Shown piece by piece: positions 11,104 to 37,627 of a DNA stretch of 61,388 nt. Position numbers and translations under genes: made by a program. This DNA is from Alphaproteobacteria bacterium (GTDB taxonomy: Bacteria > Pseudomonadota > Alphaproteobacteria > Rhizobiales > Beijerinckiaceae). Location of the stretch: contig VGDY01000004.1 in assembly GCA_016869555.1 (NCBI GenBank), positions 1 to 61,388 on the forward strand, read 5' to 3'. How positions within the stretch are numbered: the first letter of the stretch is position 1; each line of letters starts with the position of its first letter. The notes under the pieces are model-generated. The model searched no databases and was not told where the DNA came from. It saw nothing but the letters and a program-made list of their open reading frames with translations.

Positions 11104-11649
11104 ATGACCGAGCATATCTGGCTGGCGACGGGCGAAGCGACGGTTCTGGCGGCTGACGGACAATATACCGACGCGATGCCGGAAGTCATGATCGGCAACG
11201 TCAAGGGACCGGTCGGGCACGCCTTCGCCAGCATGGCGGGTCAGGTCGCCGGCCACCCGCGCATGTTCGTCATCCGCGACCTCAATCAGCAGGTGCGCCC
11301 CGCCACGATGATGACCACCAAAATGACGGTCAAATCGGAAGACTATGTCGAGCTGCTCGGCGGGATCGTGCAGGCGGCGACCGGCGACGCCATCGTCGAC
11401 TGCGTCGCCGAGGGGATCATCCCCAAGGATCAGATCGACGAACTCTGCATGATCATCATGGTCTGGCTCGATCCGCGCTGCGCCAAGCACCAGAAGAAAC
11501 TCGACAGAAAAGACCTCTATCGCACCAATTACGAGGCGACCAAACTCGCGATCTCGCGCGCGATGAAGGGCGAGCCGACGGCCGACGAACTCATCGCCAA
11601 CCGCAAGAGCGTGCAGCATTACGCGCTTGAAGGCGTATTCGACGACTGA
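11104..11649 (+). CDS. formaldehyde-activating enzyme (Fae) family paralogue
   Basis: A 181-residue member of the Fae family; true Fae condenses formaldehyde with tetrahydromethanopterin in methylotrophs. Start ATG 11104 follows AAAAGAGG. Family hallmarks are GPVGHAFASM, VAEGIIPKDQIDEL, YEATKLAISRAMKGEP and NRKSVQH. The segment that carries the conserved catalytic histidine in true Fae (VAHIDLIIG) reads AMPEVMIG here, so that residue appears replaced by Met25, and the C-terminal third has an insertion (CAKHQKKLDRKDLYR). It is therefore more likely a Fae2/Fae3-like paralogue of unclear function than the main enzyme. Its last 31 bases overlap the convergent bufC gene. Confidence 0.85.
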   Translation: MTEHIWLATGEATVLAADGQYTDAMPEVMIGNVKGPVGHAFASMAGQVAGHPRMFVIRDLNQQVRPATMMTTKMTVKSEDYVELLGGIVQAATGDAIVDCVAEGIIPKDQIDELCMIIMVWLDPRCAKHQKKLDRKDLYRTNYEATKLAISRAMKGEPTADELIANRKSVQHYALEGVFDD

Positions 11650-12458
11650 TCTTCGCCGCCAACGCGCACGCCGATGATCATGCCGTCCTGAAACCAGCTC
11701 GACAGACATTGCGCCAACCGCTCCGGCGCAATCTCGCCCGACTGCTGGAAAGCGGTCATCTGGCAGATGTCGCCAAAGGCGTGGCCGGCGCGGGCTTCGC
11801 AAAGCGCGACATATTCGTCGGGCTCAAGCTGGCGATACGCCGATTCATGATCGACGCGCCACACGGCGACATATTCGACGCCGCCGCCCGCCGCCGGCGC
11901 ATCGATTTTCTCCGGCGGCTCCTCGCTGATCGCGGCGTCATAGGAGGCGATCGTGCCGGCGGCGAGTTCGAGCAGCGTGAGGCTCAGGTCGAAATCGAAG
12001 GCGAGCCGCGGCCAGTCATTGGGCGCGAATTCCGCCAGCGCCTGCACCGCCAAGGGCGTTTCGTCAGCGGCGTCGAAGGCGTCGACCATCGCGCGTTCGA
12101 ACAGCGCCATCGATACGGCCCGCGCATCCTCGCGCCAGGTCGGACAGTCGCGCATGAAATCCGGCAGTCCGGTCGTGAAAAAGCGCGCGTTGGGATCGCG
12201 CGACGGGCGCTGATCGATGTAATCGTCGATGAGCGCCTCAAACGCCTCGCCGCCGAGGACCGCGCGCAGCCCAGGGTGATCCTGAGACACGAAATCGGCC
12301 AGTCGCAGGCGATAGCCATTTTGATATACGCCAAGCAACGTCTCGGGAGTCGCCCCGCGCGGCGACGAGCGCAATTTTTTCAGCAGCGGCTTATCCGCCT
12401 CTGCTGAGCCCGCCAGCACGCTCTCCTGAAACAGGGACTGAAAATCGGCGAGCTTCAT
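11619..12458 (-). CDS. bufC: HvfC/BufC-family peptide-modification partner (DUF2063)
   Basis: A 279-residue protein whose N-terminal domain (MKLADFQSLFQESVLAG, LGVYQNGYRLRLADFV, DHPGLRAVLG) matches the DUF2063/HvfC-BufC family. The remaining half resembles the winged-helix-like C-terminal part of these proteins. Known members bind the precursor peptide and work with the DUF692 (MNIO) oxygenase to modify cysteines. Its start overlaps the bufB stop by four bases. Its 3' end runs 31 bases into the convergent Fae-like gene. Confidence 0.87.
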   Translation of the reverse strand: MKLADFQSLFQESVLAGSAEADKPLLKKLRSSPRGATPETLLGVYQNGYRLRLADFVSQDHPGLRAVLGGEAFEALIDDYIDQRPSRDPNARFFTTGLPDFMRDCPTWREDARAVSMALFERAMVDAFDAADETPLAVQALAEFAPNDWPRLAFDFDLSLTLLELAAGTIASYDAAISEEPPEKIDAPAAGGGVEYVAVWRVDHESAYRQLEPDEYVALCEARAGHAFGDICQMTAFQQSGEIAPERLAQCLSSWFQDGMIIGVRVGGEDQSSNTPSSA

Positions 12459-13306
12459 GCCGCGCTGCGCGCACGCTCGTTCGCGATGCGGGCGTCGATA
12501 TCGCGCATATGTTGCAGTTCGTCGAGAAGCTCCGAGAACGGCGGATAATTGTCGTCGCGCTCGATCATGGCCGAGACGTCGCCGCAGCGCCGGCGCGCAT
12601 GCTCATAGAGCGCCCAGACTTCGTCGCAGACCGGCTGGTCGTGCGTATCGACGCGATGCGTCTCATTGTCGGTATGGCCCGCCATATGGAACTGCACGAC
12701 GCGCTCTGCGGGAACGCCGTCGATGAAGGCGACCGGATCGAAGCCGTGATTGAAGCTCGAAACGAAAACATTGTTGACGTCGAGCAGCAAAAGGCAGTCA
12801 GCGCGCTCCGCCATTTCGCGAACGAATTCGTGTTCGCTCATCTCGGAGTCGACGAAGGAGACATAGGTCGACGCGTTTTCGACGACGAGCCGGCGCTTGA
12901 GGAAATCCTGCACCCGCTGGATGCGCTCGACGATATGCGCAAGCGACTCGCGCGTATAGGGAATGGGCAACAGATCATGGAGCGTGACGCCGTGAACGCC
13001 GGTCCAGGCGACGTGATCCGAAATCCAGGCCGGTTCGACCCGATCGGCGAGCGCCTTCAATTGCCGCAGATAATCGACGTTGAGCGGATCGGTCGAGGCG
13101 AGCGACATCGAGACGCCGTGCATGACGATGGGATAATCAGCCCGGATCCGATCCAGCATCGCCAGAGGCTTGCCGCCGGCGAGCATGTAATTTTCGGAGA
13201 TGATTTCGAACCAGTCGATCGGCGGGCGCGACGCCAGAATCTCGTCGTAATAGACGGGCCTCAGTCCTAAGCCGTAGCCGAGAGGCGCAGGCCTTTCCAT
13301 TGACAT
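12455..13306 (-). CDS. bufB: MNIO-family (DUF692) bufferin maturase
   Basis: A 283-residue TIM-barrel protein of the multinuclear non-haem iron oxidative enzyme family, relatives of methanobactin MbnB. The start at 13306 (MSMERPAPLG) follows GAAAGGGGGAC; the open frame could begin at 13327. Metal-ligand and core motifs are seen: GLRPVYYDEIL, FEIISENYM, MHGVSMSLAS, ISDHVAWTG, HDLLPIPYT, VVENASTYVSF, LLLDVNNVFVSSFNHG, QFHMAGHTDN, DTHDQPVCDEVWALYE and MIERDDN. Family members oxidise cysteines of a precursor peptide to thiooxazole-, oxazolone- or thioamide-type groups. It sits between the candidate precursor and bufC. Confidence 0.92.
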   Translation of the reverse strand: MSMERPAPLGYGLGLRPVYYDEILASRPPIDWFEIISENYMLAGGKPLAMLDRIRADYPIVMHGVSMSLASTDPLNVDYLRQLKALADRVEPAWISDHVAWTGVHGVTLHDLLPIPYTRESLAHIVERIQRVQDFLKRRLVVENASTYVSFVDSEMSEHEFVREMAERADCLLLLDVNNVFVSSFNHGFDPVAFIDGVPAERVVQFHMAGHTDNETHRVDTHDQPVCDEVWALYEHARRRCGDVSAMIERDDNYPPFSELLDELQHMRDIDARIANERARSAA

Positions 13307-13382
13307 GTCCCCCTTTCGCGCCGCCATCTATGCCGAAGCCGGCAACGGGGACGGCCAAACGAACCGTCCCCGCACATGACGA

Positions 13383-13616
13383 CTACTTCTTGGTGTGGCA
13401 GCGGTTCTTCATATTGCAGTGACCCTTATGATGGTGACACTGCGCCTTGTGGTGGCATTTGGCCATGCCGCGGCAGCTTGACTTGCCGCCGCAATGGGTC
13501 TTGGCGTGGGTCGCCTTGGCGCCATGCGCATGGGCGGGCGCGACTGACGCGCCGCTCAAGGCAAGGGCGACGGCGGCGGCGGCGAGCGCCGATCCTGAAA
13601 TAATATTGGGCTTCAT
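13383..13616 (-). CDS. bufA: bufferin-like His/Cys-rich precursor peptide
   Basis: A 77-residue small protein starting at ATG 13616 after the ribosome site GAGGAGAGAAAA (a second ATG at 13634 overlaps that site). A Sec-type signal peptide (MKPNIISGSALAAAAVALAL...) ends at a likely AHA-HG cleavage site. The mature part of about 47 residues has six cysteines spaced C-x5-C-x5-C-x5-C-x6-C-x5-C, about ten histidines (CHHKAQC, CHHHKGHC) and many lysines. It lies 76 bases upstream of bufB on the same strand, the usual precursor position. I infer that it is the modified, metal-binding peptide of this operon; it does not look like the classic DUF2282 bufferins. Confidence 0.82.
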   Translation of the reverse strand: MKPNIISGSALAAAAVALALSGASVAPAHAHGAKATHAKTHCGGKSSCRGMAKCHHKAQCHHHKGHCNMKNRCHTKK

Positions 13617-14035
13617 TTTTCTCTCCTCTTTCATATTCCCCTCGCGATGAAGGGAAGTCGACGCTCTCGCCGGTCGCGCGGCGTATGCCAGCTTCTACTT
13701 AGCGCGCGCGGCCGTTGTGTCGGCCTTGGCTGGCGCGGGGAAGCAGCGGCCCAACAGGATATCCGCGCTTCTTCCTGCTTCCGCGATTGCGCCCTTGCGA
13801 AACAGCGCGAACCCGGACCGCAGTCCAAGCTTGGCGATGCAGCCTATGCGTGCGACGTCGATTCCGCCAGCAGTAAATTCGACGATACGGCGCGCGCTCA
13901 CTTTATGTTTAATATATCAAATCAGTATATTAGTAGTTTATCGCGTTGCAATATCATGGTTTTGCCGCAGCTTCTTCGGAACGGTTTCTGCTTGGAGCGC
14001 TTGCGGCGGCGGCGCGTCGCTGATAGATAACGCCC

Positions 14036-14218: not shown

Positions 14219-15964
14219 ATGTCCGTCACTACCGATCGCGCGCCCACGCGCGAAGATTTCGCCGCCCTGCTCGATGAAAGCTACGGCCAGAACGAAGCGT
14301 TCGAAGGCTCCGTCATTAAGGGGCGGGTCGTCGCCATCGAAAAGGATGTCGCCGTCATCGACATCGGCCTCAAGACCGAAGGCCGCGTCCCGATCAAGGA
14401 ATTCACCGGCTACGGGCGCGACCCCGCGCCGCAGGTCGGCGAAGAGGTCGAAGTCTATCTGGAGCGCGTCGAGAATGCGCTCGGCGAAGCCGTCATTTCG
14501 CGGGACAAGGCGCGCCGCGAAGAGAGCTGGGTGAAGCTCGAAAAGGCGTTCGAGACCAATGAAAAGGTCGACGGCGTCATCTTCAATCAGGTCAAGGGCG
14601 GGTTTACCGTCGATCTCGACGGCGCGGTGGCGTTCCTGCCGCGCTCACAAGTCGACATCCGGCCGATCCGCGACGTCGGCCCGCTGATGAACGTCCCGCA
14701 GCCGTTCCACATCCTGAAGATGGATCGCCGCCGCGGCAACATCGTCGTGTCGCGCCGCACCGTGCTCGAAGAGAGCCGCGCCGAGCAGCGCCATGAGATC
14801 GTCGCCAATCTCGAAGAGGGACAGGTGATCGACGGCGTCGTGAAGAACATCACCGACTACGGCGCCTTCGTTGATCTCGGCGGCATCGACGGCCTGCTGC
14901 ATGTCACCGACATCGCCTGGCGGCGGGTCAACCACCCGTCCGAGGTGCTGACCATCGGCCAGACCGTCAAGGTGAAGATCATCAAGATCAATCACGAGAC
15001 GCACCGCATCTCGCTCGGCATGAAGCAGCTGCTGGAAGACCCGTGGCAGGGCATCGAGGCGAAATATCCGATCGGCGCCAGATTCCATGGCCGCGTGACC
15101 AACATCACCGACTATGGCGCCTTCGTCGAACTGGAGCCCGGCATCGAGGGCCTCGTCCATGTCTCGGAAATGAGCTGGACGAAGAAGAACGTCCATCCCG
15201 GCAAGATCGTCTCGACGAGCCAGGAAGTCGACGTTCAGGTGCTCGAAGTCGATCCGGTCAAGCGCCGCATTTCGCTCGGCCTCAAGCAGTGCCTGCAGAA
15301 TCCGTGGGAGGCCTTCGCCGAGAAACATCCGGTCGGCTCAAGCGTCTCCGGCGAAGTCAAGAACAAGACCGAATTCGGCCTGTTCATCGGCCTCGACGGC
15401 GATGTGGACGGCATGGTCCATCTCTCCGACCTCGACTGGAACCGTCCGGGCGAGCAGGTGATCGAGGAATATAAGAAGGGCGACGTCATCAACGCCCAGG
15501 TTCTCGACGTCGACGTCGAGAAGGAGCGCATTTCGCTCGGCGTGAAGCAGCTCGGCAGCGATCCTTTCGCTTCCGTCGGCGGCGGCGAGGACGGCGGCGA
15601 GGTGAAGAAGGGCGCGGTCGTCACCTGCGAAGTGATCGAGGTGAAGGAGTCCGGCATCGACGTGAAGATCTCCGGCACCGATCTCTCCACTTTCATCAAG
15701 CGCAGCGAACTCGCGCGCGACCGCGCCGACCAGCGTCCCGAGCGTTTCGCCGTGGGCGAAAAGGTCGACGGCCGCGTCACGCTCTTCGACCGCAAGGCGC
15801 GCAAGGTCTCCGTCTCCATCAAGGCGCTGGAAGTCGCCGAGGAGAAGGAGGCGATCGCGCAATATGGCTCGGCCGATTCCGGCGCGTCGCTCGGCGACAT
15901 CCTCGGCGCGGCGCTGAAAGCCCGCGAAGAGACGCCAAAGAAGGGCAAGAAATCCGAGGAGTAA
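14219..15964 (+). CDS. rpsA: 30S ribosomal protein S1
   Basis: A 581-residue S1 protein, which binds mRNA on the small subunit and helps initiate translation. The start follows CAGGAGAACAA. It contains a run of S1/OB-fold repeats recognisable by the recurring pattern G-x-V-x-N-I-T-D-Y-G-A-F-V-D/E-L and RRISLG/HRISLG endings (KNITDYGAFVDLGGIDGL; TNITDYGAFVELEPGIEGL; KNKTEFGLFIGLDGDVDG), six domains in all, and ends in a lysine-rich tail. cmk, often directly upstream of rpsA, is not present here. A strong intrinsic terminator follows. Confidence 0.98.
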   Translation: MSVTTDRAPTREDFAALLDESYGQNEAFEGSVIKGRVVAIEKDVAVIDIGLKTEGRVPIKEFTGYGRDPAPQVGEEVEVYLERVENALGEAVISRDKARREESWVKLEKAFETNEKVDGVIFNQVKGGFTVDLDGAVAFLPRSQVDIRPIRDVGPLMNVPQPFHILKMDRRRGNIVVSRRTVLEESRAEQRHEIVANLEEGQVIDGVVKNITDYGAFVDLGGIDGLLHVTDIAWRRVNHPSEVLTIGQTVKVKIIKINHETHRISLGMKQLLEDPWQGIEAKYPIGARFHGRVTNITDYGAFVELEPGIEGLVHVSEMSWTKKNVHPGKIVSTSQEVDVQVLEVDPVKRRISLGLKQCLQNPWEAFAEKHPVGSSVSGEVKNKTEFGLFIGLDGDVDGMVHLSDLDWNRPGEQVIEEYKKGDVINAQVLDVDVEKERISLGVKQLGSDPFASVGGGEDGGEVKKGAVVTCEVIEVKESGIDVKISGTDLSTFIKRSELARDRADQRPERFAVGEKVDGRVTLFDRKARKVSVSIKALEVAEEKEAIAQYGSADSGASLGDILGAALKAREETPKKGKKSEE

Positions 15965-35998: not shown

Positions 35999-37627
35999 TC
36001 ACAGGCCCGGATCGTCCCCGCTCTGCGACTCTTCCGCGGCAAGTCCGAAGTTCAATCGCGACCAGAGCCGCTCGTGCAGATAATAGAGCGCGAAGATCGC
36101 GATCATCTCGACGCCAGTAATTTCGGCGGCGAGTTCTATGCTTTGGATGAAGCCGTAAACGATCAGGAAGGTTGAAACGCTCGCCGGAACAAGCCAGGAA
36201 AGCGCTTTCACCAGACTGCGCGTCGGCGTCGGCTTGAACGACTCCCGCGCCGGCGGCAGGCCTTCCATCGAAGCGTAGCTGAGTTCGGTCAGCGGCGGCG
36301 CCGCGCGGCCGTTCGACGCGGCGACTGCTTTGACCATGCCGACCCCGACCGTTTCATTGGTGACGCGGTCGATGAGAATGAATCCGCCGGTTTCGCGATT
36401 TTCGACATAAGGGTCGCAGGCGATCACGGTTTCAAGCGACAGGCGCGCGTCGCCGATTTCGTTGAAAGCGAGCGTCGCGCCCCCTAGCAGCGGTTGCGAC
36501 TGACCGGTTTCGATATCGATGCGCGTGTCGACGACGGTCACGGCGGCGGGCGCGGTTTTCGTCCCGATCTTCAACAGATAGCTCTTGCCGGCGACAAGCG
36601 GCTCGCGCACCAGCCATAGGAGCTTCGCGTCGAGACGATCGCCGATTTTCGCGGGCGAGACCGGCGAACACAAAAGATCGCCGCGCGAAACGTCGATCTC
36701 TTCAGCGAGCGTGAGCGTCGCCGACTGACCCGAGACAGCGCTGTCGAGATCGCCGTCGAAGGTGACGATCCTGGCGACGCGCGTATCGCGGCCTGACGGC
36801 AGAATGCGCACGATATCGCCGGGCCGGATGTTGCCGCCGCTGATGAAGCCGGAGAATCCGCGGAAGTCGAGATTGGGTCGATTGACCCATTGCACCGGCA
36901 TGCGGAAGGGCGCGATCCGCGTCGTGTCTTCCACCGCGACGCCTTCGAGATAGGACAGAAGCGGCGGCCCGCCGTGCCAGGGCATGTTTGCGCTGGCGTG
37001 GACAAGATTGTCGCCGTCCTTGGCGACAAGCGGCGCGACATAGATCGACGCAAAGTGAAGTGCGTCGGCGAAGGCGTGAAAATCCGCCTCGATCTTGCGA
37101 AACACCTCCTCGCTGTAGCCGACAAGGTCCATCTTGTTGACCGCGACCACGACATGGCGCACGCCGAACATCGAGGTGATGACGCTGTGCCGGCGGGTTT
37201 GCGGCAGAATGCCCTTGCGCGCGTCGACAAGCAGAATGGCGAGATCGGCGGTCGAAGCGCCGACCGCCATGTTGCGGGTATATTGCTCATGGCCCGGCGT
37301 GTCGGCGACGATGAATTTGCGCCGGTCGGTCGCGAAATAGCGATAGGCGACGTCGATGGTGATGCCCTGTTCGCGCTCGGCCGCGAGACCGTCGACGAGC
37401 AGCGCGAAATCCAGCGCCTCGCCCTGGGTGCCGTGCTTCTTTGAGTCGCTTTCCAGCGCCGCGATAATGTCGTCAGGCGCAAGATCGGCGTCATAAAGCA
37501 GGCGCCCGATCAGAGTCGATTTGCCGTCGTCGACCGAGCCGCAGGTGATGAACCGCAACAGCGGCTTTTCGCCGAGCTGTCGCGCCGGCGCGCGCGACGG
37601 CGAAGCGGTGGCGACGGCGCCGTGCAT
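35999..37627 (-). CDS. cysN: sulfate adenylyltransferase subunit 1 (CysN) with C-terminal DUF2061-like membrane domain
   Basis: The GTPase subunit of ATP sulfurylase, which drives formation of adenosine-5'-phosphosulfate by CysD. P-loop GSVDDGKSTLIGRLLYDA, DTPGHEQYTRNM and NKMDLVGYS are clear, followed by EF-Tu-like beta domains. Where many CysN proteins end or carry APS kinase, this one (542 residues) has a linker and then, from residue 470, a hydrophobic domain (RSLVKALSWLVPASVSTFLI, GVEMIAIFALYYLHERLWSR) resembling DUF2061. No APS-kinase domain is present. Last gene of the sulfate operon, one base after cysD. Confidence 0.95.
   Translation of the reverse strand: MHGAVATASPSRAPARQLGEKPLLRFITCGSVDDGKSTLIGRLLYDADLAPDDIIAALESDSKKHGTQGEALDFALLVDGLAAEREQGITIDVAYRYFATDRRKFIVADTPGHEQYTRNMAVGASTADLAILLVDARKGILPQTRRHSVITSMFGVRHVVVAVNKMDLVGYSEEVFRKIEADFHAFADALHFASIYVAPLVAKDGDNLVHASANMPWHGGPPLLSYLEGVAVEDTTRIAPFRMPVQWVNRPNLDFRGFSGFISGGNIRPGDIVRILPSGRDTRVARIVTFDGDLDSAVSGQSATLTLAEEIDVSRGDLLCSPVSPAKIGDRLDAKLLWLVREPLVAGKSYLLKIGTKTAPAAVTVVDTRIDIETGQSQPLLGGATLAFNEIGDARLSLETVIACDPYVENRETGGFILIDRVTNETVGVGMVKAVAASNGRAAPPLTELSYASMEGLPPARESFKPTPTRSLVKALSWLVPASVSTFLIVYGFIQSIELAAEITGVEMIAIFALYYLHERLWSRLNFGLAAEESQSGDDPGL

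Follow-up and report, generated by a model that had tools for sequence, protein, structure and literature searches.

What does a bufferin maturase act on when the gene directly before it encodes a peptide that passes no described precursor model? The question is raised by a 61,388-nucleotide stretch of alphaproteobacterial DNA (contig VGDY01000004.1 of assembly GCA_016869555.1, Beijerinckiaceae; hereafter the window), which carries a three-gene operon on its minus strand, from 13616 to 11619, for a His- and Cys-rich precursor peptide, an MNIO enzyme (BufB) and a DUF2063 protein (BufC). We label the genus Methylocystis, a label inferred from the likeness of the window to a named Methylocystis metagenome-assembled genome (L005), which carries the operon with 96% identity in the peptide and 97% in BufB. 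The reading that we favour, and consider on balance probable, takes the three genes for a bufferin (captophorin) operon: its precursor would derive from BufA2, having been remodelled into a His-rich form at a fixed locus, and its product would buffer periplasmic copper.

A conserved His-rich precursor

The bufA-like precursor gene (13383–13616, minus strand, as are all operon features below) encodes 77 residues of what we call the short His-rich type. Its longest frame starts at 13634 and yields 83 residues with 11 His; the conserved part begins at an MKP, MKT or MKS start, which gives the 77-residue form. Residues 1–30 (MKPNIISGSALAAAAVALALSGASVAPAHA; 13527–13616) make up a Sec-type, BufA2-like leader, probably the recognition element, which ends in an AxA motif with a cleavage site read by eye as APAHA|HGAK. 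Residues 31–77 (13386–13526) form the predicted mature core, HGAKATHAKTHCGGKSSCRGMAKCHHKAQCHHHKGHCNMKNRCHTKK, with six Cys spaced exactly 5-5-5-6-5, just as an earlier note on this DNA had described for an exported 77-residue peptide. Downstream lie bufB (12455–13306, start MSMERP, with an alternative start at 13327) and bufC (11619–12458), the stop of the former and the start of the latter sharing the four bases ATGA (12455–12458). Read from 13327, the enzyme matches the Pfam MNIO family PF05114 with 368.3 bits and passes the BufB model NF050167 (377.1 bits, cut-off 310), and its partner matches PF09836 (56.3 bits, cut-off 27.2). The gene content, the overlap and the bufferin-type assignment of the same note are thereby borne out.

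The His and Cys content of the precursor is beyond chance expectation. With thresholds that were set after the peptide had been seen, at least six Cys together with at least eight His occurred in 5 of the 60,195 47-residue stretches read in six frames of the window, the first and last of those printed being consecutive positions of the precursor gene, and in none of 1,573,608 stretches from 30 first-order Markov resamplings of the window. All six Cys and their spacing are invariant in the 22 genomes that carry the short form, as are six His of a 36-codon core, and the ratio of non-synonymous to synonymous polymorphism (pN/pS) among 21 distinct coding sequences is 0.13 in the leader (first 31 codons) and 0.19 in the 36-codon core. 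The short-form precursor is thus kept by purifying selection.

Comparison with described precursors

The precursor passes no described model in Pfam or NCBIfam. Its match to BufA2 (NF050166) stays below threshold, at 23.2 bits for a cut-off of 60, and is lost once the leader is removed; the mature part alone has no NCBIfam match. The profile search proposed in the earlier note, run here, returned this BufA2 score and neither a DUF2282 nor an HvfA-type match. Three candidate homes were rejected: DUF2282 (no Pfam match), EGKCG/HvfA (no EGKCG repeat and no match) and methanobactin (no match).

The peptide resembles Buf1 precursors (DUF2282, PF10048) in being exported, in containing Cys and in having MNIO and DUF2063 partners, but it lacks the PF10048 match, whereas a real DUF2282 precursor on contig C8 of the same genome scores 87.1 bits (cut-off 22.4). 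With the oxazolin/HvfA/fontiphorin precursors (EGKCG, or 'Lys-Cys' captophorins) it shares repeated Cys at mostly five-residue spacing and the MNIO–DUF2063 pair, but it has no EGKCG repeat, and the window enzyme reaches 275.9 bits against an HvfB cut-off of 360, yet exceeds that for BufB. Methanobactin is likewise an MNIO-modified copper peptide of methanotrophs, but its cluster (MbnA/B/C) stands separately on contig C117 of this genome, and the window enzyme gains 79.3 bits for MbnB (cut-off 325).

The closest relatives are the Buf2/BufA2 precursors (NF050166; 'Cys-Lys' captophorins), which have the same kind of Sec leader, six Cys, the gene order A-B-C with the precursor directly before bufB and bufC, and the same BufB lineage; canonical BufA2 occupies the very same place in four congeners. 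The differences lie in the core. Canonical spacing is 5-5-6-5-13 (12 in genus g4), compared with 5-5-5-6-5 in the window peptide, which lacks the C-terminal loop that holds the sixth Cys. After its six Cys the short form has G, R/H, H, H, N and H, never Lys: across 22 short precursors the residue that follows is His at 71, Gly at 22, Asn at 22 and Arg at 17 of 132 Cys, compared with Lys at 34 of 60 in ten canonical precursors. His residues after residue 30 average ten in the short form and one in the canonical form.

The precursor thus falls outside BufA2 by model, spacing and the Cys-Lys rule, and from its sequence is best called a His-rich variant of BufA2. The earlier note had set it apart from DUF2282 bufferins, which the absent PF10048 match supports, but the proper yardstick is the six-Cys BufA2/Buf2 bufferins rather than DUF2282 (Buf1). 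Its further suggestion of a class not yet described holds for the family libraries and main texts searched. Since the leader is BufA2-like and four congeners have canonical BufA2 in front of the same bufB, however, a remodelled Buf2 is a better reading of the peptide than a class without relation to it.

A search of titles and abstract openings found no His-rich bufferin. The main text of PMC12452194 contains none of the terms 'His', 'histidine', 'Methylocystis' or 'Methylosinus', but it reports hundreds of small precursors with 1–18 Cys, listed in its Table S2. The main text of PMC13097082 does not use 'histidine', and that of PMC12811070, on the copper transcriptome of Methylosinus trichosporium OB3b, names no MNIO, DUF692, DUF2063 or DUF2282.

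Precursor types at one locus

Of 39 Methylocystis genomes, 32 carry an orthologous bufB (74–100% identity), each with a candidate precursor directly before it; at 17 of these loci our filters found no second one. His-rich forms hold this place in 28 loci (22 short, 6 long-type), and canonical BufA2 in the other four. The short form stands alone in 17 genomes and has companions in five, namely a long His-rich and a two-Cys peptide in G404 and G411, and a two-Cys peptide in G399, G413 and G414. The long type has nine Cys (spacing 6-5-6-10-3-5-6-5) and is accompanied by a two-Cys peptide in four genomes; in G238 a two-Cys peptide accompanies an eight-Cys relative of this type, and in G430 a three-Cys peptide accompanies a five-Cys one. 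Canonical BufA2 (5-5-6-5-13) occurs with a small Cys-poor peptide in G397, G400, G410 and G412. Two precursors (G425, G426) and three two-Cys peptides (G399, G402, G403) escaped the open reading frame (ORF) filter and were taken from another reading of the loci. L006, apparently the same record as G413:C103 (the same peptides on a contig of the same length, 85,429), and L005, with the same peptide as G427, were not counted as extra genomes.

The surroundings of the operon indicate a single chromosomal place. The gene rpsA adjoins it in 12 of 13 Methylocystis stretches, including those of the canonical G400 and G410, as well as in the window and L005; it is absent from the 15 kb read around the G397 operon. 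Downstream, fae is present in G397, G400, G238, G401, L005 and the window, and judged by its frame also in G412; the remaining nine of the 13 stretches showed none. With differing precursors before an orthologous bufB and rpsA beside the operon, we conclude that the precursor changed at a fixed place next to a conserved enzyme.

A leader pattern, [STCGPQL]G-x2-[LIVATF]A-x-[ATV][AVM] near the N-terminus, is common to these peptides and to those of a second genus, g176: it occurs in 22/22 short, 8/8 long-type, 9/9 g176 and 10/10 canonical precursors and in 10 of 12 two-Cys peptides (a count that omits G399, G402 and G403). The pattern was derived from the same sequences, most of which had come through an ORF filter that itself required a similar motif, and these counts are therefore partly circular. 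Among 429 ORFs of the window it matches one, which must be the precursor gene.

The two- and three-Cys companion peptides (L058–L070, L110–L113) are encoded about 400–740 bases before bufB. They have a BufA2-like leader, a K-C-x4/5-C motif and, in most of them, an Ala/Pro/Lys-rich tail, and they precede the precursors in canonical, long-type and some short-type Methylocystis loci; none was found in the clade of the window. They may be a second MNIO substrate.

Distribution and origin of the His-rich core

His-rich forms have so far been found in two related genera. In g176, a six-Cys His-rich form (6-5-6-6/9/10-5) is present in nine of ten orthologous loci read, and none was recognized in the tenth, G522; pmoA-family genes are present in 9/9 g176 genomes tested. 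Canonical BufA2 was the precursor at every one of the 18 loci read in six further genera of the family, and likewise at the seven paralogous bufB copies that were read, among more that exist, in the two His-rich genera.

A His-rich profile that includes the leader (A1) matched 43 of 397 family genomes at 1e-6; its matches outside the two genera fall in g148, g157 and g174, all with canonical precursors at the loci read. The profile had no match in 384 other genomes drawn from the class, a survey that says little about genera not drawn, because the profile includes the leader and the own genome was the sole match. Among 388 genomes from the phylum it matched the own genome, G238 and, weakly, G025, the peptide of which (L013) is canonical by Cys spacing. 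The peptide alone, searched against 397 genomes from the order, gave matches in 31 at E ≤ 0.01, none stronger than 1e-5 besides the own genome and G238.

The short cores are plainly related to the long and g176 cores (hhalign probability 98.6%), and long-type forms show 53–67% identity to a g176 core. Long and g176 cores retain a C-M-T-x-K-x2-C stretch, which in the canonical BufA2 of the four Methylocystis genomes reads CMTPKN[SA]C. It is thus likely, though not proven, that the His-rich core descends from BufA2.

The bufB tree places the nine g176 rows in a clade of their own (99/94). The 28 His-rich Methylocystis rows group in a second clade (100/99), which the four canonical Methylocystis rows join (93/81, branch drawn open). 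A single origin of the His-rich type, considered from this tree, was rejected, as the canonical Methylocystis rows fall with the His-rich ones; the placement requires two gains, or one gain followed by loss or replacement. The core common to g176 and long-type forms favours one origin of the core itself.

The modifying enzymes

The nearest chain to BufB in the Protein Data Bank (PDB) is 3bww_A (1.9e-47). Across 47 BufB rows, 23 H/D/E/N positions never vary, among them H63, D97, H98, E143, N144, D176, H207, D220, H222 and E249, and the invariant motifs align with 3bww; these positions presumably include the iron ligands. Plasmid-borne relatives of BufB, in 344 records, are all under 60% identity. 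BufC scores 13.9 bits for the NCBIfam HvfC model, below the cut-off of 142, and neither its single sequence (best E 0.084, an esterase) nor a 16-sequence profile found a relative among PDB sequences.

Upstream region and neighbouring genes

Between the operon and the divergent rpsA, which starts at 14219, the window has an AT-rich element (13900–13960) that contains a near-palindrome (TTTGATATATTAAA) as well as an inverted repeat, TTGC-N3-GCAA, in imperfect form. The element was seen in the clade with the short form alone and not at the same place in other loci. The repeat occurs at a promoter-like place in 16 of the 17 short-only genomes, the window being the exception, with one half-site altered. 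A candidate sigma-70-like promoter (13924–13951, minus strand), a consensus match about 310 bases before the precursor start, lies here too; sigma-70-like sites in the stretch number 3, compared with 0.7 expected. Repeat and promoter candidate may belong to rpsA. No known RNA in Rfam was found before the operon, the only one in the window to reach its gathering score being an SRP RNA elsewhere.

The wider surroundings are those of a housekeeping chromosome, with genes for MdoG, dihydroorotate dehydrogenase, Fae, an S1-domain protein, DnaX and DNA polymerase I. Further along, at 35999–37627, a protein combines an EF-Tu-type GTP-binding domain with a C-terminal DUF2061 membrane domain.

Other MNIO and bufferin loci of the genome

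The genome (3.95 Mb in 295 contigs, the window being contig C4; completeness 99.99, contamination 8.61) has two pmoA-family genes, in keeping with the copper-dependent methanotroph that the earlier note had supposed as host. Its methanobactin cluster on C117 comprises mbnA, mbnB and mbnC and passes TIGR04071, TIGR04159 and TIGR04160. On C8, the DUF2282 (Buf1) precursor gene is accompanied by genes for an MNIO (BufB score 371.9 bits), a DUF2063 protein and a DoxX protein, and a canonical BufA2 is encoded farther away on the same contig (C8:6334–6567). A second canonical BufA2 (C99:13872–14099; 90 bits) lies near a contig end, and none of the four MNIO matches of the genome is on C99.

On C117, a single frame (L004:2342–3178) joins an ECF-type sigma factor (Sigma70_r2, Sigma70_r4_2) to a terminal methanobactin precursor (Pfam Methanobactin, 51.8 bits, residues 249–275); an inner start would give mbnA alone, and NCBIfam includes a model for such sigma factor–methanobactin precursor fusions. 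On C9 (L003:905–3214), the fourth MNIO has two neighbours: a TIGR04222 membrane protein with C-terminal Cys, and a protein whose NHLP-type (Os17) match stays below threshold.

Proposed function and alternatives

By analogy with described systems, we infer peptide modification, thiooxazole chemistry, copper as the metal and a buffering role. BufB would turn the six Cys, or some of them, into 5-thiooxazoles through a four-electron oxidation of each; the modified peptide would be exported and its leader then removed. The mature 47-residue peptide would bind periplasmic copper through thiooxazole donors and the His residues that replaced Lys beside Cys, and would in this way buffer copper in a methanotroph that imports much of it for particulate methane monooxygenase (pMMO). 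As precedents, 5-thiooxazole is installed in all characterized MNIO-PME1 cases, the products generally bind Cu and FonA loses 4 H per site (PMC13097082), and bufferins are tied to copper excess (PMC12452194).

Several observations weigh against this proposal. The BufA2 match of the precursor is weak (E 0.010 in a whole-genome search), and in the same search matches below the cut-off, at E ≤ 1, turned up in 3 of 14 control genomes as well. Homology of the mature core to BufA2 is not demonstrable by hhalign, whether canonical cores are compared with short ones (probability 5.3%) or with long and g176 ones (8.6%, with the C-M-T-x-K-x2-C stretches aligned). The Cys-Lys pairs are lost from the core, and FonBC, a related complex, left substrates with a charged residue after Cys unprocessed (PMC13097082). 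The true substrates could instead be the products of the canonical BufA2 genes on C8 and C99, neither of which adjoins a bufB of its own type. A C-terminal RRE (winged-helix) domain in BufC finds no confirmation in the AlphaFold model (three sequences), which at a pLDDT of 41.7 is too poor for a fold comparison, or among PDB sequences. No copper-responsive element was identified, and a related Microbulbifer cluster (mmr) was undetected in proteomes with or without added copper (PMC12538549). Residues of BufB specific to the His-rich lineages, sought among the 47 rows, were not found by the criterion used; the lack of any residue separating them from canonical lineages also fits an enzyme that would read the leader and tolerate the core.

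A role in copper supply is the best-placed alternative, although distinctly less probable than buffering. Rather than defend against copper, the modified peptide would then hold or carry it in the periplasm and supply it to pMMO and other cuproenzymes. His-rich forms are found only in two genera with pmoA-family genes, and among 34 genomes picked, PF02461 was present in 18/19 with His-rich forms compared with 1/10 (in fragments) from other genera, and MbnB in 12/19 compared with 0/10. However, phylogeny alone yields this pattern, and the canonical-type congeners have the pmoA family in 4/4 and MbnB in one; moreover, described bufferins act under copper excess (PMC12452194), and the operon has no transporter or chaperone gene.

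Somewhat less probable again is an unmodified metal-binding peptide, metallothionein- or Hpn-like and specific for Zn, Ni or Cu, with BufBC acting on canonical BufA2 encoded elsewhere. The complete loss of Cys-Lys (0/132 Cys, compared with 34/60) and the two canonical BufA2 genes at C8:6334–6567 and C99:13872–14099 speak for it. Against it, the peptide keeps a BufA2-like leader and an invariant Cys spacing (22/22), and its gene immediately precedes bufB at 22 loci; at 17 of these the filters found no other precursor in the operon. A different or partial modification at Cys-His sites (another MNIO product, or only some Cys modified), giving a ligand type not yet seen, is improbable: Cys neighbours govern FonBC turnover and Cys-His lies outside the DUF2282, Lys-Cys and Cys-Lys groups (PMC13097082), but BufB passes the ordinary bufferin model without lineage-specific residues by the test used, and the operon has no tailoring gene.

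Returning to a copper-buffering BufA2 derivative, we note that the three precursor groups named in PMC13097082 are those same DUF2282, Lys-Cys and Cys-Lys groups, with Cys-His in none. We put forward, tentatively and with less confidence than the buffering role itself, that the bufferins of pMMO methanotrophs include a fourth, 'Cys-His' group. In its products thiooxazoles would alternate with imidazoles, joined by a free N-terminal His if the leader is cut at APAHA|H, a residue that such a cut would leave in 22/22 short precursors. This ligand set is found in none of the bufferins described in the papers cited here; it would have arisen through changes to the precursor at one locus, with the modifying enzymes left as they were, and the peptide would act between methanobactin import and methane monooxygenase.

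The substrate tolerance of MNIO–DUF2063 pairs is an open question, and this locus offers a natural series for it: within one genus, closely related enzymes are preceded by canonical, long His-rich or short His-rich precursors, or by two or three in tandem. Leader recognition and core tolerance can thus be tested side by side. For the organisms themselves, the operon suggests a copper-buffering arm that would operate beside methanobactin in bacteria with copper-dependent methane oxidation.

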